From positions 62,001 through 126,000 of the forward strand of contig NZ_LN849007.1 in assembly GCF_001243045.1 (NCBI RefSeq): a stretch of DNA of 64,000 nt, written 5' to 3'. Shown here one piece after another: positions 1 through 48,346 of the stretch (position 1 is its first letter; the number at the start of each line of letters is the position of its first letter). A program made the translations under genes and the position numbers. This stretch comes from Clostridium niameyense (lineage in GTDB: Bacteria > Bacillota > Clostridia > Clostridiales > Clostridiaceae). The notes beneath the pieces were generated by a model. It did no database searches. It saw nothing but the letters and a program-made list of their open reading frames with translations, and was not told the DNA's origin.

Positions 1-1
1 A

Positions 2-184
2 CAATATGAGTGGAGTTATTATGGAAAAGCTAGTATTTATGGAAGGCGTAAAGATGTAGAAAATACAGTAAAATATTTAAAAAAGGCTATAGAAATCTGT
101 CCAGATGTAAAAGAAGAGGCTAAACATGAGGCAGATTTTGACAATGTTAGGGATTCTAAAGAATTTAAAGATCTTATTAAATAA
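2..184 (+). CDS. TPR-repeat protein, C-terminal end (5' truncated)
   Basis: An open frame enters from the left edge and stops with TAA at 182-184, leaving 60 codons. The residues carry a helical repeat pattern (YGKASIYGRRKDVENTVKYL, then KKAIEICP) typical of a last tetratricopeptide repeat, followed by a short acidic/lysine tail ending in FKDLIK. The N-terminus and the rest of the protein lie outside the window, so no function beyond a likely protein-binding TPR scaffold can be given. It converges on the gene at 238-2250 and shares a terminator with it. Confidence 0.7.
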   Translation, partial: QYEWSYYGKASIYGRRKDVENTVKYLKKAIEICPDVKEEAKHEADFDNVRDSKEFKDLIK

Positions 185-187
185 GAA

Positions 188-233
188 AGTATCCACAGAT
201 AATTAACAAAGTTATTAACAATCTGTGGATACT
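188..233. terminator. Bidirectional terminator between convergent genes
   Basis: A perfect 13-bp inverted repeat (AGTATCCACAGAT at 188-200, complement at 221-233) lies between the stop codons of two convergent genes and is followed by a T-rich stretch. The arms resemble DnaA boxes by chance. Confidence 0.7.
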
Positions 234-237
234 TTTG

Positions 238-2250
238 TTATTTATATATTTCTTCAGTTATATTATATTTTTTACATTTTAATGACACAGTTCTATGAGT
301 TATACCTAAAGCTTTTCCGGCCTTATTAAAAGTTTTATACTTCTTCATTGCTAATGTTATTATTTCTTTTTCATATTCTTCTAAAGTTTTTAAGTTTCCC
401 TCACTAATATTAATATTAGTATTTTCATCATTTGCATCTGTATTATTTATATAAAAGGGTAGGTCCTTACAAGTTATTATAGATCCATCACACATATTCA
501 TAGCTCGCTCTATTACATTTTCTAATTCTCTTATGTTACCAGGCCAATCATACTGTTGAAGCTTTATCAGAGATTCCTTATTTATGCCGCTTATATTTTT
601 ATTTAGTACAGGATTTAATTTTTTGATGAAATCTTCTACAAAAAGATTTATATCCTGTTTTCTATGTCTTAAAGGTGGGAGTGATATATTCATTACGTTT
701 AATCTATAATATAAATCTTCCCTAAAGCTACCTTCTTCCATCATTTTTTCTAAGTTTCTATTGGTAGCAGCTATGATTCTTACATCCACCTTTTGAGTTT
801 TGATTCCTCCAATGCTTTCAAATTCTTTTTCTTGTAAAACCCTTAACAGTTTTACTTGCATAGATAACGGGAGATCACCTATTTCGTCTAAAAATATAGT
901 TCCTGTATGAGCTATATTAAATTTACCGGGTTTCTTTTTTACAGCTCCTGTAAAAGAACCTTTTTCATAGCCAAAAAGTTCACTTTCTAATAAATTCTCA
1001 GGTATGGCAGCGCAGTTAACTCTTACAAAAGGATTATTTTTTCTATTACTATTATTATGAATAGCTTTAGCTATAACTTCTTTACCAGTACCACTTTCAC
1101 CACGTATAAGTACAGTGGACGTAGAGTTAGAGGCCTTTTCAGCTATGATTAAACAATCTTTTAAGGAAGAATTCCAACCAATTATAGATTTAAAGGAACT
1201 ACATAAAGGCAAATGTCTATCCAACTCATCTTTATAATAATTAATTCTTTCTTCCGATTCTCTAAGTTTTGAAGATAAATCTTTCAATTCATCAACAGTT
1301 TTAGACATAGAGATAACACCTTTAAATACGTTATCTATAAATATTGGCTCTACATTAGAAAACATATCTATGCCATCTTTAGAGTGAAATATATTTTGTT
1401 GGGATAATTTGGTTTTGAAAACATTAGCTCTAATACCATTAGGTGATAATTCATTAATATTTTTTCCTATAACATTTTCAAGTTTTATAGAAAAATGTTT
1501 TTCATAGGATGGATTAATATAATTTATTTTTCCATTTTCGTCTAAAAAACAAATTAAATCATGAGATGCCTCTAATATTTTTTGAAATTTTTCATTTAAT
1601 TCTTTTATACCTACTAATTCAGAAATATCTTGGAATACTCCTATTGCTCCAAGCATTTTATCATTAAAATAAATAGGACATCTATTTACAATCACTATTT
1701 TATTATTTATATGTTGGGTTTTACCAATTTGTTGATTTTTATTTTTTACAACGTCTGGTAGTTGTGAACTAGGTATTATTCCAGTAACATTTTTACCTAT
1801 AATATTTTTTAATGGTTCACCAATTACTTTTAAAGCATAATCATTGGCCATAGTAATTTTACTATTTGTATCCACAATTAATATACCTATAGGTATATTA
1901 GAAAAAATTTGGTCGTAGGCTATTGTATTTTCCTCTATAATATTATCTAATTTAGAAATAGGAGAATCAATGTTAATATCTTTATTTATAAAGTTACATA
2001 GTTCTAACACGGCTTTTTCAGCTTTAGATGAATTATCAGGACAAGATATTTCTATAATCTCATCTTCTTTTATTTTTAAAGAAACTAATGCTAGCATGCT
2101 TATAGCTAAAGTATCTTTAGCATCTATCTTTTTAACATAAAGATTAACGTTATATTTAGTTTGTATTTCTGTAGTTTTATGAACTATCATAGCAGCAATT
2201 CTTGTATGTATTCCATTTTTAACGTGAACAACTATACTATTTTTATACAC
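238..2250 (-). CDS. Sigma-54-dependent activator with N-terminal HPr domain (HPr-PAS-PAS-AAA+-HTH)
   Basis: Enhancer-binding protein for sigma-54 RNA polymerase. Numbered from the preferred start, residues 1-90 are an HPr-like domain, about 105-215 and 220-320 are two PAS domains, about 350-590 are the AAA+ domain (Walker A GESGTGKE near 384-391, GSFTGA loop near 431-436, Walker B IFLDEIGD near 452-459), and the end is a Fis/TyrR-type HTH. A GTG at 2259 is possible, but AAGGAG abuts it directly. The GTG at 2250 has 8-nt spacing and puts the HPr histidine at residue 15 (NGIHTR), the canonical HPr position; a serine in SMLALVSL aligns by eye with HPr Ser-46. It is divergent from ptsI, so it probably activates ptsI and senses PTS phosphorylation. 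No D54-type response-regulator receiver domain is present. Confidence 0.9.
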   Translation of the reverse strand: MYKNSIVVHVKNGIHTRIAAMIVHKTTEIQTKYNVNLYVKKIDAKDTLAISMLALVSLKIKEDEIIEISCPDNSSKAEKAVLELCNFINKDINIDSPISKLDNIIEENTIAYDQIFSNIPIGILIVDTNSKITMANDYALKVIGEPLKNIIGKNVTGIIPSSQLPDVVKNKNQQIGKTQHINNKIVIVNRCPIYFNDKMLGAIGVFQDISELVGIKELNEKFQKILEASHDLICFLDENGKINYINPSYEKHFSIKLENVIGKNINELSPNGIRANVFKTKLSQQNIFHSKDGIDMFSNVEPIFIDNVFKGVISMSKTVDELKDLSSKLRESEERINYYKDELDRHLPLCSSFKSIIGWNSSLKDCLIIAEKASNSTSTVLIRGESGTGKEVIAKAIHNNSNRKNNPFVRVNCAAIPENLLESELFGYEKGSFTGAVKKKPGKFNIAHTGTIFLDEIGDLPLSMQVKLLRVLQEKEFESIGGIKTQKVDVRIIAATNRNLEKMMEEGSFREDLYYRLNVMNISLPPLRHRKQDINLFVEDFIKKLNPVLNKNISGINKESLIKLQQYDWPGNIRELENVIERAMNMCDGSIITCKDLPFYINNTDANDENTNINISEGNLKTLEEYEKEIITLAMKKYKTFNKAGKALGITHRTVSLKCKKYNITEEIYK

Positions 2251-2262
2251 ATATATCACTCC

Positions 2263-2279
2263 TTGATAAAAAGTATCAA
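2263..2279. promoter_or_regulatory. Palindromic activator site 1 (TTGATA-N5-TATCAA)
   Basis: First of three copies of one palindrome in the ptsI/regulator gap. It overlaps the ribosome-site region of the regulator mRNA, so binding here could also autoregulate the regulator. Confidence 0.6.
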
Positions 2280-2292
2280 AGTTGTTTATAAT

Positions 2293-2309
2293 TAGATAAA
2301 AAATATCAA
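2293..2309. promoter_or_regulatory. Palindromic activator site 2 (TAGATA-N5-TATCAA)
   Basis: Second copy, one base off the perfect palindrome. Its centre is 30 bp from the centre of site 1, close to three helical turns, which would favour cooperative binding on one DNA face. Confidence 0.6.
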
Positions 2310-2366
2310 TTATATTATATTATACCTTTAAAAATAATAATATACCATAAATAATAAAGATAAATA

Positions 2367-2383
2367 TTGATATTTTTTATCAA
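2367..2383. promoter_or_regulatory. Palindromic activator site 3 (TTGATA-N5-TATCAA)
   Basis: Third copy, perfect arms around five T. It lies about 124 bp upstream of the start point predicted from the sigma-54 promoter, a normal distance for a sigma-54 enhancer element. Confidence 0.6.
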
Positions 2384-2471
2384 TACCTATTTTTATTATT
2401 TAATATCTATTATAAAGATAGTGGAAAAAGAGTGTATAATATAAGAAAATGATAAAATAACAATAAATTTA

Positions 2472-2489
2472 TTGGCATGAATTTTGCTA
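2472..2489 (+). promoter_or_regulatory. Sigma-54 (-24/-12) promoter of ptsI
   Basis: TTGGCATGAATTTTGCTA has the invariant GG and GC doublets exactly 10 nt apart, matching the TGGCAC-N5-TTGC consensus. Transcription should start near 2499, about 60 nt before the ptsI ATG. The divergent gene encodes a sigma-54 activator, which supports the call. Confidence 0.8.
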
Positions 2490-2560
2490 AATAATATTTA
2501 TACATATTGAATTGTAAATAGAGAATAATAATTTTATAGATAAACAAGGAGGAAAACACT

Positions 2561-4177
2561 ATGAAAAGAGGTATAGCTGCTTCGAAGGGATATGCGATAG
2601 GAAAAGTTTTTTTAAAGGAAGATATAGATTTAGATATAGTTGCAAAAAATATAGATAATATAGAGGAAGAGAAAATAAGATTTAATGAAGCTTTAAATAA
2701 TACAAGAAAACAGCTTGAAAATATAAAAGAAAAAGCAGAAAAAGAAATGGGTAAAGATAAGGCAGCAGTTTTTGATGGTCATATTATGCTTTTAGAAGAT
2801 CCAGAATTTGTAGGTTCAGTGGAATCAAGTATAGAAAACAATAAGATAAATGCAGAAAAAGCATTAAAAGATGTAATTGATATGTATGCTTCAATCTTTG
2901 CTTCTATGGAAGATGAGTATATAAAAGAAAGAGGAGCAGATATACAAGATGTAGGTAAAAGAATAATGTTTAATCTATTAGGCAAGGTAGGAAATGGTAT
3001 GGAGGATCTAGAAGAAAATACTATAATAGTATCACATGATTTAACTCCATCTGATACTGCTCAATTAGACAGAAGTAAGGTTATAGCTTTTTTAACTAAC
3101 ATAGGAGGTAGAACTTCTCATAGTGCTATAATGTCTAGAACTTTAGAAATACCAGCAATTGTTGGAATGAAGGATATAACAAATTTAGTTGAAACTGGCG
3201 ATATAATTATAGTAGATGGTGTAGAAGGAGTTGCAATAATAAATCCAGATAAAGCAACTATAGAAAAATATGAAGGATACAAAAAGCAATTTGAAAAAGA
3301 AAAAGAAGAATTAAAAAAATTAATAAATGTTAAAACTGTTACCAAAAGCGGTAAGAATGTTGAAGTGTGTGGTAACATTGGTAAGCCTCAAGATGTAACT
3401 GCTGTACTAGAAAACGGTGGAGAAGGTATAGGACTTTTTAGAACAGAATTTTTATACATGGATAGGGACAGTATGCCTACCGAAGAGGAACAGTTTGAAG
3501 TTTATAAATATGTAGTAGAAAAAATGAGAGAGAAACCTGTTGTTATAAGAACATTAGATATTGGCGGAGATAAAAAATTACCATATTTACAACTTCCAGA
3601 AGAAATGAATCCATTTTTAGGATTTAGAGCTATAAGATTATGTCTTGATAAAAAAGAATTATTTAAAATTCAATTAAGAGCATTACTTAGGGCATCAGCT
3701 TTTGGTAATTTAAAAATAATGTTTCCTATGATATCATCTTTAAGTGAATTTTTACAAGCTAAAGATGTATTAAAAGAATGCATGGCGGAATTAGAGAAAG
3801 AAGGAAAAGCATTTAATGCAAATTTAGAAACGGGTATAATGGTAGAAATACCAGCTGCAGCAGTTTATGCAGACGAACTTGCTAAACATGTTGATTTCTT
3901 TAGTATAGGAACTAATGATTTAATTCAATATACACTAGCTGCAGACAGAATGAATGAAAAAGTTTCATATTTATATGATCCTATGCATCCAGCAGTATTA
4001 AGATTGATAAAGATGACAATAGATGCAGCTCATAAAGAAGGTAAATGGTGTGGTATGTGCGGAGAAATGGCAGGAGATGAAAAAGCTGTACCAACTCTTG
4101 TTGAGTATGGATTAGATGAGTATTCTATGAGTGCATCATCTATATTAAGAGCTAAGCAAATAATAATGAATAACTAG
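2561..4177 (+). CDS. ptsI: Phosphoenolpyruvate-protein phosphotransferase (PTS enzyme I)
   Basis: Cytoplasmic enzyme I transfers phosphate from PEP to HPr, the first step for every PTS sugar. The N-terminal swivelling domain has the phospho-accepting histidine in GGRTSHSAI (His-187), and the C-terminal PEP-binding barrel shows GEGIGLFRTEFLYM, FGNLKIMFPMIS and SIGTNDLIQY. At 538 residues it is about 30 shorter than the usual 570, ending just after the SASSIL motif; the catalytic parts are intact. AAGGAGG precedes the ATG. No ptsH lies beside it. It appears to be expressed from the sigma-54 promoter under the HPr-domain activator, and would energise the sorbitol and mannitol PTS systems further on. 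Confidence 0.96.
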   Translation: MKRGIAASKGYAIGKVFLKEDIDLDIVAKNIDNIEEEKIRFNEALNNTRKQLENIKEKAEKEMGKDKAAVFDGHIMLLEDPEFVGSVESSIENNKINAEKALKDVIDMYASIFASMEDEYIKERGADIQDVGKRIMFNLLGKVGNGMEDLEENTIIVSHDLTPSDTAQLDRSKVIAFLTNIGGRTSHSAIMSRTLEIPAIVGMKDITNLVETGDIIIVDGVEGVAIINPDKATIEKYEGYKKQFEKEKEELKKLINVKTVTKSGKNVEVCGNIGKPQDVTAVLENGGEGIGLFRTEFLYMDRDSMPTEEEQFEVYKYVVEKMREKPVVIRTLDIGGDKKLPYLQLPEEMNPFLGFRAIRLCLDKKELFKIQLRALLRASAFGNLKIMFPMISSLSEFLQAKDVLKECMAELEKEGKAFNANLETGIMVEIPAAAVYADELAKHVDFFSIGTNDLIQYTLAADRMNEKVSYLYDPMHPAVLRLIKMTIDAAHKEGKWCGMCGEMAGDEKAVPTLVEYGLDEYSMSASSILRAKQIIMNN

Positions 4178-4186
4178 TTATTATTA

Positions 4187-4218
4187 TAGTCATGGATAAT
4201 TATCCATGGCTATTTTTA
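4187..4218 (+). terminator. Terminator after ptsI
   Basis: CATGGATAAT/ATTATCCATG stem with adjacent CTA/TAG pairing, followed by a short T-rich run. Confidence 0.6.
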
Positions 4219-4314
4219 TATAGAATTTCATAGAAAGAAATGTTTATATGAATATACATAAATAGTATTTTTAGATATAATTAAATATATATACTAAAGT
4301 TTGGAGGTTTTAAA

Positions 4315-5055
4315 ATGAAAAAAAGTTATTTAAATAAAGCATATACTTTATTAGTGTTAGGATTAATTTCATTATTTTTATTATCTGGATGTGAAAACAA
4401 TAATTTAGCATCAAAAAATGCAGGTAGTGAAGATAATAAAAAACAGGAACAAAATGTAGAACAAAAACAAAATAAAGTGGAAAATAAAAATGAATATAAT
4501 AATAAACAAGAAAATGAAACTAAGGAAGAAAATGGTGGTAAAGCGGTTGCAGGGAGAAAAAAGCAAGTTAAGGATAAAAACTTTAATCCAAGTTTTAATA
4601 CACCATGGAAACAAACAGAGAACAAAAAATATTCAGTAACTATAGAAGGAAAGGGGGAATCAGCGCAAGAAGAAGGAATTGGAGAAGTTTACATAAAAGA
4701 TTCAGAAGGAGTTATGTGGAATTTGGATTTAAAGGATATAGAACCTGGTAAAACACCAAAGTATACAATGTGGTTAAACAATGAAAATCTAATGGTTATA
4801 ATAGGACAAGCTAATGGAACTGTTAACAAAGGTGGAAATTTATATAATATAAATATGAATACTAACAAGGTAACAACAATATATAAATCACATGACCATA
4901 AGGAAGAAGTTATATCTGTAAAAAGACAAAATGATTCTTTAGAAAAATTAGATTTAATATTATCTTTGAATGTTTATGAAGATGATAATTTAACAAAATC
5001 TCATGTAGATGAAGTTAAATTTTCCCATGATAAAATAAAGGAACTAATAAAATAG
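4315..5055 (+). CDS. Putative lipoprotein of unknown function
   Basis: Residues 1-26 form a lipoprotein signal with a hydrophobic core and lipobox LLSGC, so the mature protein should be anchored outside the membrane by the lipidated cysteine. Residues about 28-80 are a low-complexity linker rich in K, E, N and Q. The remaining 160 residues look like a compact beta-rich domain (KKYSVTIEGKGE, GVMWNLDLKDIEPG, NLYNINMNTNKVTTIY). I do not recognise the family. The ATG has a good GGAGG site at -9. It sits 32 nt before the TPR membrane protein and may share its transcript. Confidence 0.75.
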   Translation: MKKSYLNKAYTLLVLGLISLFLLSGCENNNLASKNAGSEDNKKQEQNVEQKQNKVENKNEYNNKQENETKEENGGKAVAGRKKQVKDKNFNPSFNTPWKQTENKKYSVTIEGKGESAQEEGIGEVYIKDSEGVMWNLDLKDIEPGKTPKYTMWLNNENLMVIIGQANGTVNKGGNLYNINMNTNKVTTIYKSHDHKEEVISVKRQNDSLEKLDLILSLNVYEDDNLTKSHVDEVKFSHDKIKELIK

Positions 5056-5087
5056 TTATTTATAATAATTAGGTGAGGAAAAATAAT

Positions 5088-6344
5088 ATGGATACAACGA
5101 ATAAATCAAAAAAATTATATTTTAAAGCTTTAGAATTAATTAATAAAGGATATATAGATAAGGCTTTAGACTGTTGTGAGAAAAGTATAGCTGTTGATAT
5201 AAAAAACTCTTCAGCTATAAATTTAAAAGGATTATTATACTATTTAAAGGGTGATTTAATAAGCGCAAAAAAGCTATGGAAGATGAATTATAGTAGCAAT
5301 AAAGATGAAATTGCACATAAATACTTAAATGGAATGAAATTTGATGAAAAACTTCTGAAAAAATATGCAGATGCAGTATTATTAAAGAAAAAATCAAGCA
5401 TAAGAGAAGCAATAGATTTATTTAAGCAGTGTGAAGAGAGTGATTTTAATAGTATAAATGTAAGTAATAATATATCTGAATGTTATTTAAAATTAGGAAA
5501 GTACACTGATGCTTTAGAATATAATAACAAGGTAATAGCTATAGATAAAAATAATGAATGTGGAAAAAATATTAGAAAAATTTTAACTAAGAGAAAAGTA
5601 GTGAAAAGTGATAGAAAAAAAATTTGCAAAATAGTTGTTGGTATTATTCTTATTATAAGCGTATTTACGTCTACATTAATGTTTACATTTAATAGTGAAT
5701 TTAAAAATAAATATTTAGGAAATATAAAGCTAAAAAAAGAACCTAAAAAGGTAACTTCAAAAAAACAGGTTCCGCAAAATAAATCTAAAAAAGTTGAAAA
5801 TAAAAGTATTAAAAAGGAATCAAATTTAAAGTTTAATGCAGATGAAGCAAAGGAAGGCTTAAATAAAAAAGATTATAATAAATTATATAATATATATAAT
5901 TATTGGAAAGACAAAGATTTAAATATAAATGATAAATCTATATTAATAAAGGTAGAGGATGTATTAAAAGAAGAAGGAATACAATATATGTATAATAATG
6001 CTTTGAATTTATTAAAAGATAATAAATTCAAAGAGAGTAATGAATGTTTATTAAAAGCATATAGTTTTGGGTATATTAATTATTTATATCCACATATAAT
6101 TTATTTATTAGGAACAAATTATGAAGCCATGGAAAATATCAGTGAAGCTATAAAATATTATGAACAATATGATAATAAATTTAATAAAGATAATTATGAA
6201 GAAGTAGTGTTGTATAAACTATGTATACTATATGAAAAGATAGATAATAATAAATCAAAAAATTACGCAAATAGATTAATTAACCAATATCCAAGTTCTA
6301 TATATAATAATTCAAATATAAAGAGAGTTCTAAATAATAATTAA
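5088..6344 (+). CDS. TPR membrane protein, unknown function
   Basis: Residues 1-170 contain tetratricopeptide-type repeats (ALELINKGYIDKALDCCEKS, ECYLKLGKYTDALEYNNKVI). One membrane helix follows at about residues 180-203 (CKIVVGIILIISVFTSTLMF), then a lysine-rich linker and a second helical repeat region, including a TPR near residues 345-380 (YLLGTNYEAMENISEAIKYY). The likely layout is a cytosolic TPR domain, one membrane span and an external TPR domain. A GTG at 5073 is open, but AGGTGAGG sits inside that extension and is correctly spaced for the ATG at 5088. The lipoprotein gene just upstream is a possible partner. It could be a scaffold, but nothing shows its ligand. Confidence 0.75.
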   Translation: MDTTNKSKKLYFKALELINKGYIDKALDCCEKSIAVDIKNSSAINLKGLLYYLKGDLISAKKLWKMNYSSNKDEIAHKYLNGMKFDEKLLKKYADAVLLKKKSSIREAIDLFKQCEESDFNSINVSNNISECYLKLGKYTDALEYNNKVIAIDKNNECGKNIRKILTKRKVVKSDRKKICKIVVGIILIISVFTSTLMFTFNSEFKNKYLGNIKLKKEPKKVTSKKQVPQNKSKKVENKSIKKESNLKFNADEAKEGLNKKDYNKLYNIYNYWKDKDLNINDKSILIKVEDVLKEEGIQYMYNNALNLLKDNKFKESNECLLKAYSFGYINYLYPHIIYLLGTNYEAMENISEAIKYYEQYDNKFNKDNYEEVVLYKLCILYEKIDNNKSKNYANRLINQYPSSIYNNSNIKRVLNNN

Positions 6345-6409
6345 GAATAAATTCTATCCTTAATGCAGAAAATTATATTATAGTAGTTTATTAATAGGAG
6401 AGAATTAAA

Positions 6410-7588
6410 GTGATAACAATTATAAAAAATGCAGTCATATATTCTCCTAGATATTTAGGCAAAAAGGATATTGTTATAGCTTCAAATAAAATAGAAGGAA
6501 TATATGATAACGTAATTATACCAAAGGACTTTTGTAATATTAATATAATAGATGCAGACAATAATATAGTAGTTCCAGGATTTATTGATCCTCATGTTCA
6601 TATAACAGGAGGAGGAGGAGAAGGAGGTTTTAGTACGAGAACCCCTGAAATAACTCTTTCCAAAATAGTAAGTTCAGGAATAACTACTGTGGTTGGTTGT
6701 CTTGGAACTGATAGTGTATGCAGGAGTATGGGAAACTTATTAGCAAAAGCTAATGGCTTAGAGGAAGAAGGTATAACATCATATATATATACAGGTTCCT
6801 ATAGCATACCAGTTGTTAATAGTATCACAGAAAATGCTAAGTCTGATATTATACTTATTGATAAGATTATAGGTATAGGAGAGGTAGCAATATCAGATCA
6901 TAGGTCATCACAACCAAGTTTTCATGACTTTATAAAAATCTGTGCTCAAGGTAGAGTAGGTGGATTGATTTCAGGAAAAGCAGGTATAATAAATGTTCAT
7001 GTTGGAGCAGGAAGAGCTGGCATAGAATATTTATTTGAGACTATAAATAATACTGAGATTCCAATGAGTCAAATAATACCTACACACATGGGAAGAAATA
7101 AAGAACTTTTTGAGCAGGGAGTAAAATATGCAAAACAGGGTGGATTTATAGATTTTACTACAAGCTCTGATATTAAGTCTTTAGAAGCAGGAGAAATCAA
7201 AGCAAGTACTGCACTAAAAATGGCATTAGAACAAGGTGTAGATATAAAACAATTACAGTTTTCTTCAGATGGTCAGGGAAGTTTACCTATATTTAATGAA
7301 AGAAGACAATTTGTAGGATTAGGTATAGGATCAGTAAAATCACTATATGAAGAGTTTAAAGATTGTGTAACTAAAGAAAATATAAAATTTGAGCAAGCAC
7401 TTCAAGTTGTAACTTCTAATGTTGCAGATCATTTAAAATTAAAGAATAAAGGATATATAGAAAAAAATAAAGATGCAGATATTGTAATATTAAATAAAAA
7501 TAATTTAGATATAGATATGGTTATGTGTAAGGGTAAAGTGTTTGTTAAAGAAGGAAATGTTATACAAAAAGGAGTATTTGAGAAATAA
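6410..7588 (+). CDS. iadA: Isoaspartyl (beta-aspartyl) dipeptidase, amidohydrolase family
   Basis: Binuclear-metal amidohydrolase that cleaves isoaspartyl dipeptides from damaged proteins. Motifs in order are GFIDPHVHITGGGGEGG (metal ligands His-62 and His-64), GEVAISDHRSS, INVHVGAG (His-197), IPTHMGR (His-226) and SSDGQGS (catalytic Asp, about 287). The spacing between residue 158, His-197 and His-226 equals that of Lys-162, His-201 and His-230 in the E. coli enzyme as I recall it. The bridging position, a carboxylated lysine there, is therefore glutamate (Glu-158) here. Length (392) is normal. The GTG start has AGGAGAG upstream. Confidence 0.93.
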   Translation: MITIIKNAVIYSPRYLGKKDIVIASNKIEGIYDNVIIPKDFCNINIIDADNNIVVPGFIDPHVHITGGGGEGGFSTRTPEITLSKIVSSGITTVVGCLGTDSVCRSMGNLLAKANGLEEEGITSYIYTGSYSIPVVNSITENAKSDIILIDKIIGIGEVAISDHRSSQPSFHDFIKICAQGRVGGLISGKAGIINVHVGAGRAGIEYLFETINNTEIPMSQIIPTHMGRNKELFEQGVKYAKQGGFIDFTTSSDIKSLEAGEIKASTALKMALEQGVDIKQLQFSSDGQGSLPIFNERRQFVGLGIGSVKSLYEEFKDCVTKENIKFEQALQVVTSNVADHLKLKNKGYIEKNKDADIVILNKNNLDIDMVMCKGKVFVKEGNVIQKGVFEK

Positions 7589-7594
7589 TATATA

Positions 7595-7623
7595 TTGACT
7601 TGTATATATAAATATATTAAAAT
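7595..7623 (+). promoter_or_regulatory. Sigma-A promoter of trxA
   Basis: TTGACT (7595-7600) and TAAAAT (7618-7623) with a 17-nt spacer. Predicted start near 7630, just upstream of the CsoR-like palindrome. Confidence 0.6.
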
Positions 7624-7636
7624 GTAAACAAATAAG

Positions 7637-7651
7637 TACCCTGGTGGGGTA
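7637..7651. promoter_or_regulatory. CsoR/CstR-like operator (TACCC-N5-GGGTA)
   Basis: TACCC-TGGTG-GGGTA is a G/C-rich palindrome in otherwise A+T-rich DNA, at about +8 to +22 of the predicted trxA transcript and immediately before its ribosome site. It has the geometry of copper- or persulfide-sensing CsoR-family operators. No CsoR-family gene is in the window. Confidence 0.45.
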
Positions 7652-7667
7652 TATAGGAGGAATAATA

Positions 7668-7985
7668 ATGGTAAATGAAATAAATGAAAATGTATTTTCA
7701 AAAGAGGTTCTAGATTCCGATATTCCTGTATTAGTAGATTTTTGGGCTACTTGGTGTGGACCTTGTAGAATGCTTGGACCGGTAGTAGAAGAAATTTCTG
7801 AAGATTTTAATGGAAAAGTAAAATTTGTTAAAATAAATGTAGATGAAAATCCAGTTATATCAACACAATATAAAATTTCAAGTATACCAACGCTTATGTT
7901 ATTTAAAGGTGGAAATGCAGAAGAAACTTTAGTTGGATTTAGGCCTAAAGAAGCTATAGCTTCAGTTGTAGAAAAGTACATTTAG
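7668..7985 (+). CDS. trxA: Thioredoxin
   Basis: Small cytoplasmic disulfide reductase with the active site WCGPC (Cys-30 and Cys-33) in the usual thioredoxin fold, including the cis-proline motif SSIPTLMLF. The ATG at 7668 follows AGGAGG with 7-nt spacing; an upstream GTG at 7644 would read through that ribosome site and through the operator, so it is rejected. The gene is paired with a thioredoxin reductase-like gene 64 nt downstream, separated by a terminator hairpin that should make trxA transcripts exceed reductase transcripts. Confidence 0.97.
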   Translation: MVNEINENVFSKEVLDSDIPVLVDFWATWCGPCRMLGPVVEEISEDFNGKVKFVKINVDENPVISTQYKISSIPTLMLFKGGNAEETLVGFRPKEAIASVVEKYI

Positions 7986-7996
7986 CAAAAGATGAA

Positions 7997-8030
7997 TTGA
8001 GAATAACAAGTTATGTTATTCTCAATTTTC
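7997..8030 (+). terminator. Intercistronic terminator/attenuator between trxA and the reductase gene
   Basis: Perfect 12-bp stem (TTGAGAATAACA / TGTTATTCTCAA) with a 5-nt loop and TTTTC directly after. No new promoter is obvious before the next gene, so partial read-through is implied. Confidence 0.65.
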
Positions 8031-8049
8031 TATATAAGGAGTGAGGAGA

Positions 8050-8907
8050 ATGGAAAAGAGATATGATATTGCCATAATAGGAAGTGGACCAGCCGGGTTA
8101 GAGGCAGCTATAAATGCTAAAATAAGAAATAAAGAAATAATAGTATTTGGTAGTCATGAATTAAGTTCCAAATTAGTTAAAGCACCTAAAATAAATAATT
8201 ACTTAGGTTTTTATAACGTCAGTGGAAAAGAACTAAAAGTAAAATTTCAAGAACATGTAGAAAATATGGGAATAAATATAGTTTATGAAAAAATAAATAA
8301 TGTTTATGCTATGGGAGAATATTTTGCTTTAATGGTTAATGAAAAAACTTATGAAGCTAAATCCATAATATTAGCTACAGGAATGGAATATGCTAAACCT
8401 TTAAAAGGAGAGGAAGAATTTTTAGGAAGAGGTGTAGGATATTGTGCAACTTGTGATGCTCCACTTTACAAGAATAAAATTGTGGCTATTATAGGATATA
8501 ATAAAGAATCAGAGGAAGAGGCTAATTTTGTTAGTGAATTAGTTTCAAAGCTTTATTATATACCTATGTATAAAGGAGAATATTCATTAAAAAGTAACAT
8601 AGATATAGTAAGAGATGCCCCTAAAGAAATTTCAGGACAAGAAAGTGTAGAGAGCTTAATTCTTAATGAAGGAGAATTAAAAGTAGATGGGGTATTTGTT
8701 TTAAAAGATAGTATATCCCCATCACAATTAGTTCCAGGTCTGGAGATGGAAGGAGAACATATAAAAGTTAATAGAGATATGAGTACTAATATAAGAGGGT
8801 GCTTTGCTGCAGGAGATTGCACTGGAAAGCCTTATCAATATATAAAATCAGCTGGTGAAGGTCAAGTCGCAGCTTTAAGTGCAGTAAATTACTTAAATAT
8901 AAAATAA
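8050..8907 (+). CDS. Flavin thioredoxin reductase, probably ferredoxin-dependent type (FFTR-like)
   Basis: FAD domain with GSGPAGLEA near residue 11 and GCFAAGDC near the end, and a redox-active CATC at 132-135, so it belongs to the low-Mr thioredoxin reductase fold and should reduce the upstream TrxA. The central domain lacks the NADPH signatures: the usual GxGxxA reads GYNKES near 149 and the HRRxxxR segment reads YIPMYKGEY near 170. That loss is the hallmark of ferredoxin-dependent flavin thioredoxin reductases known from Clostridium. The ATG at 8050 has AAGGAG with 8-nt spacing; the in-frame GTG at 8041 overlaps that site. Which donor it uses is inference from the missing motifs. Confidence 0.88.
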   Translation: MEKRYDIAIIGSGPAGLEAAINAKIRNKEIIVFGSHELSSKLVKAPKINNYLGFYNVSGKELKVKFQEHVENMGINIVYEKINNVYAMGEYFALMVNEKTYEAKSIILATGMEYAKPLKGEEEFLGRGVGYCATCDAPLYKNKIVAIIGYNKESEEEANFVSELVSKLYYIPMYKGEYSLKSNIDIVRDAPKEISGQESVESLILNEGELKVDGVFVLKDSISPSQLVPGLEMEGEHIKVNRDMSTNIRGCFAAGDCTGKPYQYIKSAGEGQVAALSAVNYLNIK

Positions 8908-8939
8908 AAATAATCCCTAAATTTAGGGATTATTTTTAT
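8906..8939. terminator. Bidirectional terminator between convergent genes
   Basis: Near-perfect palindrome AAAAATAATCCCTAAAT and its complement, with A tract and T tract on either side. It serves the reductase gene on + and the hydrolase on -. Confidence 0.85.
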
Positions 8940-8940
8940 T

Positions 8941-9477
8941 TTATATTTTAAAAAACACGTGGTTTCCTATTGCCTTTTTATTATGTTTTGATACGTTCTT
9001 CATCCATTTACAAGTAGCTATTTTAGGATTATAAAAAAATAGAGAATAATTTGTTGGATCATTACCTTTTAGAGCTTCCATCACTGCTGCATAACTGTTT
9101 TTATCTGGAATCTTGTTTATGTTTCCGTATTTATCAATACATGAAAACGCACCTTTTTCTTTTATAACTTGTTCAATAGTATTAGGAAATTTAGAATCTA
9201 CAGTTCTATTTAATATTACAGATGCTACTGCAACTTTACCTTCAAAGGGTTCACCGCAACTTTCGGCTTGAACTACTTGAGACATTAAGTAAATATCATC
9301 TTTTGTAATACGTATGTTTTTATTGGTGTATTTTACTACTTGAACAGAATCAGATTTTAGTTTAAAAGAATTTATATCACCAGTATTTACTGGTAATGAA
9401 GCAGCAAATACAAAATTAGTTTTACCTAAAAAAACTAATAAAAAAACTGTTAATAATAATGTAAAAAATTTTTTCAA
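8941..9477 (-). CDS. Secreted cell wall hydrolase, SleB-like
   Basis: Residues 1-25 are a signal peptide ending in AAS-type residues; the rest is a Hydrolase_2/SleB lytic transglycosylase domain (about 55-178). The probable catalytic glutamate is in VVQAESCGEP, followed by GKVAVASVILNR and the late SLFFYNP and GNHVFFKI motifs. Spore-cortex SleB proteins usually carry a peptidoglycan-binding domain that is absent here, so this could act on vegetative or spore wall. The start is TTG with AGGAGG at 7-nt spacing. A c-di-AMP riboswitch directly precedes the ribosome site, and c-di-AMP synthase is the divergent neighbour. Confidence 0.9.
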   Translation of the reverse strand: MKKFFTLLLTVFLLVFLGKTNFVFAASLPVNTGDINSFKLKSDSVQVVKYTNKNIRITKDDIYLMSQVVQAESCGEPFEGKVAVASVILNRTVDSKFPNTIEQVIKEKGAFSCIDKYGNINKIPDKNSYAAVMEALKGNDPTNYSLFFYNPKIATCKWMKNVSKHNKKAIGNHVFFKI

Positions 9478-9491
9478 TTTTATTCCTCCTT

Positions 9492-9605
9492 TTGCCGACG
9501 GGGTTAGCTGACGGGTTCGGAAAAGGCATAACCTACATAAAAATATGATTCACCCCAAAATTTGGTTTCCCCGTGTAAAAAACTTAGGCTATTGCTATTA
9601 TTCCC
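9492..9605 (-). promoter_or_regulatory. c-di-AMP riboswitch (ydaO/yuaA type)
   Basis: Read on the minus strand the segment contains the family signatures in order: ACACGGGGAAACC, TTTGGGGTGAATC, TTCCGAACCCGTCAGCTAACC and CCGTCGGC. This matches the ydaO-yuaA aptamer, which commonly precedes wall hydrolase genes and turns them off when c-di-AMP is high. The last aptamer strand ends within a few bases of the AGGAGG of the hydrolase, and no intrinsic terminator lies between them. Confidence 0.93.
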
Positions 9606-9731
9606 AATTTTTATTATTTAATACTAAAAAATTAATTAAAAAATTAATAAATTTATATTTTAAGTGATATAAAAATAATTAAATAGTGTATAATTTAGAA
9701 TGTATAATTAATTTTAAGGGGTGAGCTGTGG

Positions 9732-10580
9732 GTGGAATTTTTACAGATGGTTATAAATTCAATTAAAAACATTAGTATGTACTCTATACTAGATATACTA
9801 GTAGTTTCATATATCTTTTATAAAAGTTATATTTTAATTAAGGAAACTAGAGCAGAACAATTATTAAAAGGCATAATACTTATTATAATTTTAATACCTA
9901 TTAGTAGCTTATTACATTTAACTATGTTAAGTTGGATTTTAACAAAAACCATTACGATAGGAGTATTATCCTTTGTAATAATATTCCAGCCAGAAATACG
10001 AAGGGCATTAGAGCATATAGGAAGAAGTGCATTTAATGATAAACATTTATTAGAGGATGAAAAAGTTATGGAGGAAGTTATAGATAATATAGTGTTAGCT
10101 ATAGAAAATCTTTCTAAAGATAAAACAGGGGCTTTAATAGTGATTGAACAGTTCACAGGATTAGGAGAGATAATAAAGACAGGAAATAGATTAGATGCTG
10201 TAGTATCATCTGCTTTATTAGAAAATATATTTGTAGTTAATACACCGTTACATGATGGGGCCACTATTATAAGAAATGATAGAATTGTAGCAGCAGGATG
10301 TTTTTTACCGTTGACTCAAAATACAGATATAAATAAAAAATTAGGAACAAGACATAGGGCAGCCATAGGTGTATCGGAGATATCAGATGCAATAATTATA
10401 GTTGTTTCTGAAGAAACAGGAATTATATCCTTAGCTGTTAATGGTCAATTAACAAGAGGATATACTAAGGACAATTTAAAAGATATAATGATAAGAATAA
10501 TGAAAAAAAGAAAAGTTGAGGATATTAGTTTTAAGGGGCAGGTGGTAAAATGGGCGAAAAAAGTAAAAAAGAAAATCTAA
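9732..10580 (+). CDS. cdaA: Membrane diadenylate cyclase CdaA
   Basis: Makes c-di-AMP from two ATP. Three hydrophobic segments near residues 15-35, 42-62 and 65-86 are followed by a DAC domain with the catalytic DGA at 175-177 (TPLHDGATII) and GTRHRAAIG at 205-213. Length (282) is typical. GTG start with AAGGGGTG upstream; the ATG at residue 6 is a less likely alternative. It overlaps cdaR by 31 nt. The divergent gene is controlled by a c-di-AMP riboswitch, so ligand synthesis and a target sit back to back. Confidence 0.97.
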   Translation: MEFLQMVINSIKNISMYSILDILVVSYIFYKSYILIKETRAEQLLKGIILIIILIPISSLLHLTMLSWILTKTITIGVLSFVIIFQPEIRRALEHIGRSAFNDKHLLEDEKVMEEVIDNIVLAIENLSKDKTGALIVIEQFTGLGEIIKTGNRLDAVVSSALLENIFVVNTPLHDGATIIRNDRIVAAGCFLPLTQNTDINKKLGTRHRAAIGVSEISDAIIIVVSEETGIISLAVNGQLTRGYTKDNLKDIMIRIMKKRKVEDISFKGQVVKWAKKVKKKI

Positions 10581-34465: not shown

Positions 34466-34489
34466 GTACTAGAAAGAAAGTTAAAACAT

Positions 34490-34658
34490 ATAAAAGCGCC
34501 AGAACTGAGCATATAGCTTAGTTGACGAGGAAATAGGATTATCGAAAATTCGGCGGATGTCCTATGGGATCTCACAGCCCAAGAAGCTATAATAAATATT
34601 AGAAGTGATTCTAAGAACAAAAAAGCTTTAGTGAGAACTTTCTTCTTAAATATAATAA
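34490..34658 (+). ncRNA. glmS ribozyme (glucosamine-6-phosphate riboswitch)
   Basis: Contains the conserved core in order: AAGCGCCAGAACT, GTTGACGAGG, TTATCGAA, TTCGGCGGATG and a 3' double-pseudoknot region. Self-cleavage is expected between A34495 and G34496. Bound glucosamine-6-phosphate acts as cofactor; the cut mRNA is degraded, giving feedback control of glmS. Confidence 0.95.
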
Positions 34659-48202: not shown

Positions 48203-48226
48203 AATCCTCAAAAGTGAATATTGTTT

Positions 48227-48333
48227 CTTATCCAGAGAGGCGGAGGGACTGGCCCTACGAAGCCCGGCAACCACTAAAATTATTATAGATTTTAGACGGT
48301 GCCAATTCCAGCAGGTTTAACCTGGTAGATAAG
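48227..48333 (+). promoter_or_regulatory. SAM-I (S-box) riboswitch
   Basis: P1 arms CTTATC (48227-48232) and GATAAG (48328-48333) enclose the family core: CCAGAGAGGCGGAGGGA, CTGGCCC, GAAGCCCGGCAACC and GGTGCCAATTCC. S-adenosylmethionine binding favours the terminator downstream. Confidence 0.96.
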
Positions 48334-48346
48334 ATGTTAAGAAATC

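Follow-up and report, generated by a model that had tools for sequence, protein, structure and literature searches.

A 64,000-nucleotide stretch of the Clostridium niameyense genome (contig NZ_LN849007.1, positions 62,001 to 126,000; hereafter the window) carries the gene for a putative sigma-54 activator with its own HPr domain, transcribed divergently from ptsI, the gene for enzyme I (EI) of the phosphotransferase system (PTS). Comparison with relatives shows the regulator, its putative operator, the predicted promoter, and ptsI to be one conserved unit, and we consider it very probable that the regulator is a dedicated activator of ptsI. Its HPr domain may be a sensor, built into the protein, of how active sugar uptake is. 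The best explanation of the whole, an activator of ptsI that takes its input through the HPr domain and closes a negative loop on EI, seems to us moderately likely. The original prediction, made from the sequence, had described an HPr-PAS-PAS-AAA+-helix-turn-helix (HTH) protein divergent from ptsI, and domain models agreed: on the regulator frame, 238-2259(-), Pfam matched PTS-HPr, two PAS stretches, Sigma54_activat, AAA_lid_14, and HTH_50, and on the ptsI frame, 2561-4177(+), it matched three EI domains; the latter frame was also recognized by TIGR01417.

We examined how far this arrangement extends beyond the window. An initial scan of contigs returned 11 loci, of which three are full-length Clostridium relatives (54-58% identical to the window protein); in each of these three, ptsI faces the regulator across a gap that contains palindromes and a -24/-12 promoter. 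A search of 206 genomes of the Clostridium family, with at most five candidates scored per genome, gave 71 ptsI-type loci in 70 genomes. EI lay across the gap in 67 of the 71 (counting L074, though its EI frame is interrupted). Three of the four loci without EI (L040, L054, and L072) run off the end of a contig, and the remaining one, L053, belongs to a genome with two regulator copies, the other of which (L078) adjoins ptsI. The ptsI-type proteins of sufficient length for comparison, 70 with that of the window, fell into 58 clusters at 90% identity, so the relatives count for more than near-copies. A sigma-54 gene was found in 68 of the 70 regulator-bearing genomes, and EI gave a single match in 68 of the 70.

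Three copies of the palindrome TTGATA-N5-TATCAA had been claimed for the gap; those at 2263 and 2367 proved perfect, whereas the copy at 2293 has one mismatch and reads TAGATA-N5-TATCAA. Counts at stated numbers of mismatches were compared with shuffled sequence. Over the whole window the palindrome was not enriched (15 sites with up to two mismatches vs. 16.6 expected), and therefore the case rests on the cluster in the gap, where three sites with no more than one mismatch were seen and 0.08 were expected, and on the relatives. The cluster recurred in all 66 other gaps measured. Taken together with the window, the 67 gaps held 193 palindromes when a single mismatch was allowed, vs. 1.2 expected from shuffles, and each gap had at least two at up to two mismatches; outside the gaps of the same loci, three palindromes (at most one mismatch) occurred in 462 kb. 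Sites 1 and 2 are in most cases separated by 28-33 bp (roughly three turns of the helix), and the third site is closer to the promoter. Because the first site (at most one mismatch) sits so near the regulator start, within 30 bp in 45 of the 67 gaps and within 60 bp in 60, self-repression of the regulator is suggested.

Candidate -24/-12 sites were scored with a 5-base spacer, and the best site in each gap was compared with 200 shuffles. The promoter proposed ahead of ptsI (TTGGCATGAATTTTGCT at 2472-2488) matched the consensus in full, and the best site directed toward ptsI was equaled by 1% or fewer of the shuffles in 65 of 67 gaps, compared to 1 of 67 in the reverse direction. The comparison of the 67 gaps thus supports the prediction that a sigma-54 activator controls ptsI through the palindromes. 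The window protein itself has features expected of a sigma-54 activator (bacterial enhancer-binding protein): an AAA+ domain with a GAFTGA motif, a Fis-type HTH, and a -24/-12 promoter with putative operators upstream. Its Walker A motif reads GESGTGKE and its loop GSFTGA, an A-to-S change that is present too in LevR of Bacilli (Francke 2011, PMC3162934). The HTH was recognized by HTH_50, and the Fis model HTH_8 scored 19.7, below its cut-off of 22.

The best evidence for control of ptsI by the regulator is provided by two exceptions. L071 and L070 belong to the only two of the 70 regulator-bearing genomes (G104 and G105, respectively) in which no sigma-54 gene was found, and in them the GAFTGA motif is replaced, by VEKNTNGNNN and VEKNINGNNN; they are the sole uninterrupted regulators of which this is true. 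A -24/-12 promoter was not recognizable in either gap, the best sites being no better than shuffles. Each locus nonetheless keeps two palindromes, the HPr motif, and a divergent ptsI, and TGCTATAAT lies ahead of ptsI with, by eye, the look of an extended -10 promoter. Read this way, the sigma factor disappeared along with the activator loop and the promoter, whereas the operator and the sensor persisted, and the regulator of L070 and L071 seems to be an activator that changed its sigma factor. Since the two proteins are 94% identical, the loss counts as one event. Family-wide, 35 of the 206 genomes had no sigma-54 match above the cut-off, and such an absence is weaker evidence in a draft than in a closed assembly. 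The lineage without sigma-54 offers a natural test of how an activator switches sigma factor. A further locus, L073 in genome G178, has an interrupted regulator frame, whose loop cannot be judged, and a sigma-54 match split over two frames, with ptsI open; either recent joint decay of regulator and sigma-54 or assembly errors could account for this.

The active site of the HPr domain is conserved as well. The regulator most likely starts at the GTG at 2250 and not at the GTG at 2259, because Met occupies this position in 64 of the 71 sequences aligned and AAGGAGTG lies at normal spacing from it. From this start the phosphorylatable His is residue 15, Arg is residue 17, and the equivalent of HPr Ser46 is residue 51, so that the start and the three residues named in the original prediction were all upheld by the 71-sequence alignment. 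Only five HPr columns (G13, H15, R17, A20, and S51) were invariant across the 71 ptsI-type sequences. The probability that the three named sites would be among them is 8e-5 if all 92 columns are treated as equal, which they are not, so the figure is a guide only. An AlphaFold2 model of the regulator (54-row alignment; mean pLDDT 82.4, pTM 0.44) placed its strands and helices in the order seen in HPr (strand 2-7, helix 16-33, strand 38-41, helix 52-57, strand 65-70, helix 75-91), with His15 directly ahead of helix 1. The HPr domain is present in every ptsI-type protein with a readable N-terminus. The PAS domains are less constant: PAS 2 is gone from six proteins, L074-L079, as judged from lengths and sequences and, for L074, by Pfam, which may reflect two changes on the tree, a single origin also being possible, and PAS 1 is apparently missing from L072, whose N-terminus lies beyond the contig end. 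A free HPr gene was found in all 24 genomes tested, and HPr kinase likewise in 24 of 24. When a phage collection was searched, 68 records matched the regulator, each over 80% of the query or less, and the best 20 of the 68 all lay outside the HPr domain.

Table. Features of the regulator-ptsI locus in window coordinates
Feature	Position	Strand	Basis
HPr-PAS-PAS-AAA+-HTH regulator, 670 aa	238..2250	-	ORF, Pfam, start from alignment with relatives
Fis-type HTH	259..384	-	PF18024 (HTH_50) 37.5 bits, cut-off 27
AAA+ sigma-54 interaction domain and lid	421..1185	-	PF00158 248 bits, PF25601 93 bits
GSFTGA loop (GAFTGA motif)	943..960	-	sequence
PAS 2 (missing from L074-L079)	1297..1590	-	Pfam, lengths/sequences of L074-L079, model
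PAS 1	1618..1917	-	Pfam, model
HPr domain (residues 4-89)	1984..2241	-	PF00381 40.3 bits, cut-off 23; HPr element order in model
Ser51 codon, aligned with HPr Ser46	2098..2100	-	71/71; HPr kinase in 24/24 relatives tested
Arg17 codon	2200..2202	-	71/71
His15 codon, equivalent of HPr phosphorylation site	2206..2208	-	71/71 ptsI-type HPr domains aligned
Shine-Dalgarno-like AAGGAGTG of regulator, touches palindrome 1	2257..2264	-	sequence
Palindrome 1, TTGATAAAAAGTATCAA	2263..2279	.	exact; conserved
Palindrome 2, TAGATAAAAAATATCAA (1 mismatch), 30 bp from palindrome 1	2293..2309	.	
Palindrome 3, TTGATATTTTTTATCAA, centre 99 bp upstream of -24 GG	2367..2383	.	exact
-24/-12 promoter of ptsI, TTGGCATGAATTTTGCT	2472..2488	+	full match to consensus used; 0/200 shuffles as good
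ptsI, PTS enzyme I	2561..4177	+	TIGR01417 720.6 bits, cut-off 341.7

Whether the regulon extends beyond ptsI is neither shown nor excluded by the counts, which lie near the control in two of three genomes: genome-wide palindromes with one mismatch numbered, among the matches listed, 66 vs. 67 for a reversed-pattern control in one genome, 39 vs. 33 in a second, and 88 vs. 62 in a third (G116). Exact palindromes in 13 genomes were grouped (two or more) at ptsI only; 24 of the 49 were found there, and the other 25 were single, vs. 36 for the control pattern. Putative targets at ptsH were seen in individual genomes. In G092 (L052, 1998-8025) the regulator is followed by rpoN, ptsH, and ptsI, with palindromes and a -24/-12 promoter before ptsH, and a second ptsH of G116 (L102, 1480-1746), beside an adenylate-kinase-like gene, has its own palindrome and -24/-12 promoter. 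A TPR-like gene was also noted near the unit, by Pfam in the window (5073-6344) and by eye in L001 (2259-3536) and L053 (4035-5279); it is thus present even beside a regulator copy without ptsI.

A sister branch of regulators (L080-L099) occurs at dha genes and is separated from the window protein with 100% SH-aLRT support, in a quick tree whose output carried a long-branch warning. In all 20 members dhaK follows the regulator gene at a distance of up to about 1.3 kb, a -24/-12 promoter lies between the two genes, and in 16 of the 20 a related palindrome such as TTGGTA-N5-TATCAA was present (at most two mismatches, counted with no shuffle control). Their HPr domains retain His in 20 of 20 and Ser in 18 of 20. 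No dhaK match (E 1e-10) was obtained in window positions 1-9000 or in the stretches examined of the 71 ptsI-type loci. Among the matches listed for 341 genomes of the class, four further full-length HPr-bearing proteins were found, all at dha clusters; one of these clusters, L140 (538-7013), consists of dhaK, dhaL, a dhaM-like gene, ptsI, ptsH, and then the HPr-domain activator. Dihydroxyacetone kinases of this type are supplied with phosphate by EI and HPr, and both branches would therefore guard genes whose function needs EI phosphate.

In the mechanism that we favor, the regulator would bind the palindromes via its HTH, form an AAA+ ring, and loop to sigma-54 polymerase at 2472-2488 to open the promoter; when bound at the two palindromes (1 and 2) that adjoin its own start codon, it would also limit its own expression. 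The HPr domain would take phosphate from EI~P at His15, so that the regulator reads the charge of EI. It is fairly likely, in our estimation, that the His15 phosphate is the input and, given that, moderately likely that phosphorylation by EI~P switches the activator off. When EI~P is scarce, because sugar is flowing or there is too little EI, the HPr domain would remain unphosphorylated and the activator would work; when EI~P accumulates, the domain would become phosphorylated and the activator would be off, giving a negative loop on EI. A bolder version, which we offer tentatively, is that EI directly phosphorylates the HPr domain of the very activator that sets its amount, forming a one-gene homeostat of total PTS capacity in Clostridium and its kin that, in one lineage, outlived the loss of sigma-54 by use of the main sigma factor. 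We know of no activator for which phosphorylation by EI itself is established. The pair is a concrete candidate for a ptsI gene with its own activator, the sensor of which is a copy of the ptsH product, and, if the loop exists, it is the charge of EI that would determine how much of this first PTS enzyme is present and hence how much phosphate is available to PTS sugars of every kind.

The same circuit could run with the opposite sign, His15 phosphorylation activating the regulator so that ptsI rises when EI~P and HPr~P are plentiful (no PTS sugar, high phosphoenolpyruvate). Phosphorylation by P~His-HPr is described as generally stimulatory in PRD regulators (Mitchell 2016, PMC4706839), but this would be a positive loop, in which EI increases as more of it is charged, and ptsI of Clostridium beijerinckii is reported to be highly expressed throughout fermentation, dropping 2- to 3-fold at solventogenesis (PMC3395874); we regard this version as unlikely, if worth keeping in view. 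The invariance of the residue aligned with Ser46 (71 of 71) and the presence of HPr kinase in every genome tested would also suit a different input, in which the domain would be marked by HPr kinase/phosphorylase during fast glycolysis and His15 would count for little. The ccpA-dependence of ptsI in Clostridium acetobutylicum, for which no catabolite-responsive element (CRE) was found (PMC3507653), could be read in the same way. However, His15 and Arg17 are equally invariant, the dha branch has kept His more faithfully than Ser, and the regulator has another residue in place of the Lys that precedes Ser in all 27 free HPr rows; we consider a Ser input quite unlikely.

The HPr domain could also serve for docking without phosphotransfer: free EI would bind it and so keep the activator inactive. 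The domain retains an HPr-like helix 1 and helix 2, and the loss of Pro18 discussed below could favor binding over turnover, but mere docking needs no invariant His, and we consider this improbable. Least probable of all is that the true signal, be it redox or a metabolite, is perceived by the PAS domains and that HPr is a structural leftover, for although 357 of 387 one-component activators of Clostridiales are reported to have PAS domains (Nie 2019, PMC6615313), PAS 2 and apparently PAS 1 are missing in some relatives that are ptsI-type proteins, HPr is in every readable one, and the invariant columns coincide with the phosphorylation sites. A negative loop read through the His15 phosphate is our preferred explanation.

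Several observations weigh against that explanation, or at least against its completeness. Pro18 of HPr is kept in none of the 71 ptsI-type domains, which have I, V, F, Y, or L instead, and because this residue and the Lys ahead of Ser46 have both been lost, phosphotransfer to the domain may be weak. The two PAS domains could carry another input. Most free ptsH genes, moreover, are not targets, as the palindrome and the -24/-12 promoter occurred together at only 1 of the 27 read. A basal sigma-A promoter for ptsI is also possible; sigma-70-like sites were no commoner than chance (60 of 66 gaps vs. 58.9 expected from shuffles), although that scan is uninformative because the DNA is so AT-rich. 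The word ptsI occurs 0 times in two papers on sigma-54 of C. beijerinckii (PMC6510779 and PMC7017808), their supplements aside. Finally, ptsI falls in the ccpA mutant of C. acetobutylicum with no CRE found, and other inputs to ptsI therefore exist; the regulator loop, if real, might itself bear on that drop (PMC3507653).

Elsewhere in the window, Rfam models identified a c-di-AMP riboswitch at 9478-9600(-) (84.8 bits; within 8941-10580), as well as a glmS ribozyme (34484-34638) and a SAM riboswitch (48225-48335), both well above their cut-offs. The c-di-AMP riboswitch leads an ORF that resembles a cell-wall hydrolase and faces one that resembles the c-di-AMP synthase CdaA.

The original prediction knew of no described regulator with this layout, but the layout is not new: HPr-domain sigma-54 activators were noted in Clostridia by Francke (2011, PMC3162934), citing a 1999 letter by Reizer. 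In addition, the legend to an HPr tree labels C. perfringens and C. acetobutylicum entries 'rocr' (Comas 2008, PMC2405797), and Nie (2019, PMC6615313) included PTS-HPr among activator domains and gave 'DhaQ: dhaKLM, ptsI' in Table 1. No experiment on an HPr-domain sigma-54 activator was found among the open-licence papers searched, a collection that does not extend to subscription papers. The kind of regulator is therefore already known, and its link to ptsI has already been published, at least in part, as a prediction; what is added here, as far as the literature searched reaches, is a separate ptsI branch, the operator, the linked loss of sigma-54, and the invariant active site. Like the activators of Francke (2011), the window protein joins an HPr signal domain, N-terminal and above the Pfam cut-off, to an AAA+ sigma-54 activator, but the available text of that paper gives no target, operator, or ptsI link.

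The DhaQ regulon of Nie (2019) fits the dhaK-linked branch, which has the same domain order, a related palindrome, and a -24/-12 promoter; the ptsI listed under DhaQ could be a dha-linked EI such as that of L140. Plain membership of the window protein in DhaQ was rejected, because it has no dhaK neighbor in the stretch searched, and it falls in a separate branch. PrdR (NF041552), the best NCBIfam match, was also rejected (504.4 bits vs. a cut-off of 795); its best stretch, residues 218-666, excludes the HPr domain. LevR and CelR are sigma-54 activators that read PTS phosphorylation, as proposed for the window protein. However, they have two enzyme II (EII) and two PRD domains (Francke 2011), both types being absent among the 16 Pfam families matched here, and they sit at an EII operon and not at ptsI; this membership was likewise rejected. 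With free HPr (ptsH) the regulator domain shares the fold, His15, Arg17, and Ser46, and it differs in the loss of Pro18 and of the Lys before Ser46 and in its fusion to a regulator.

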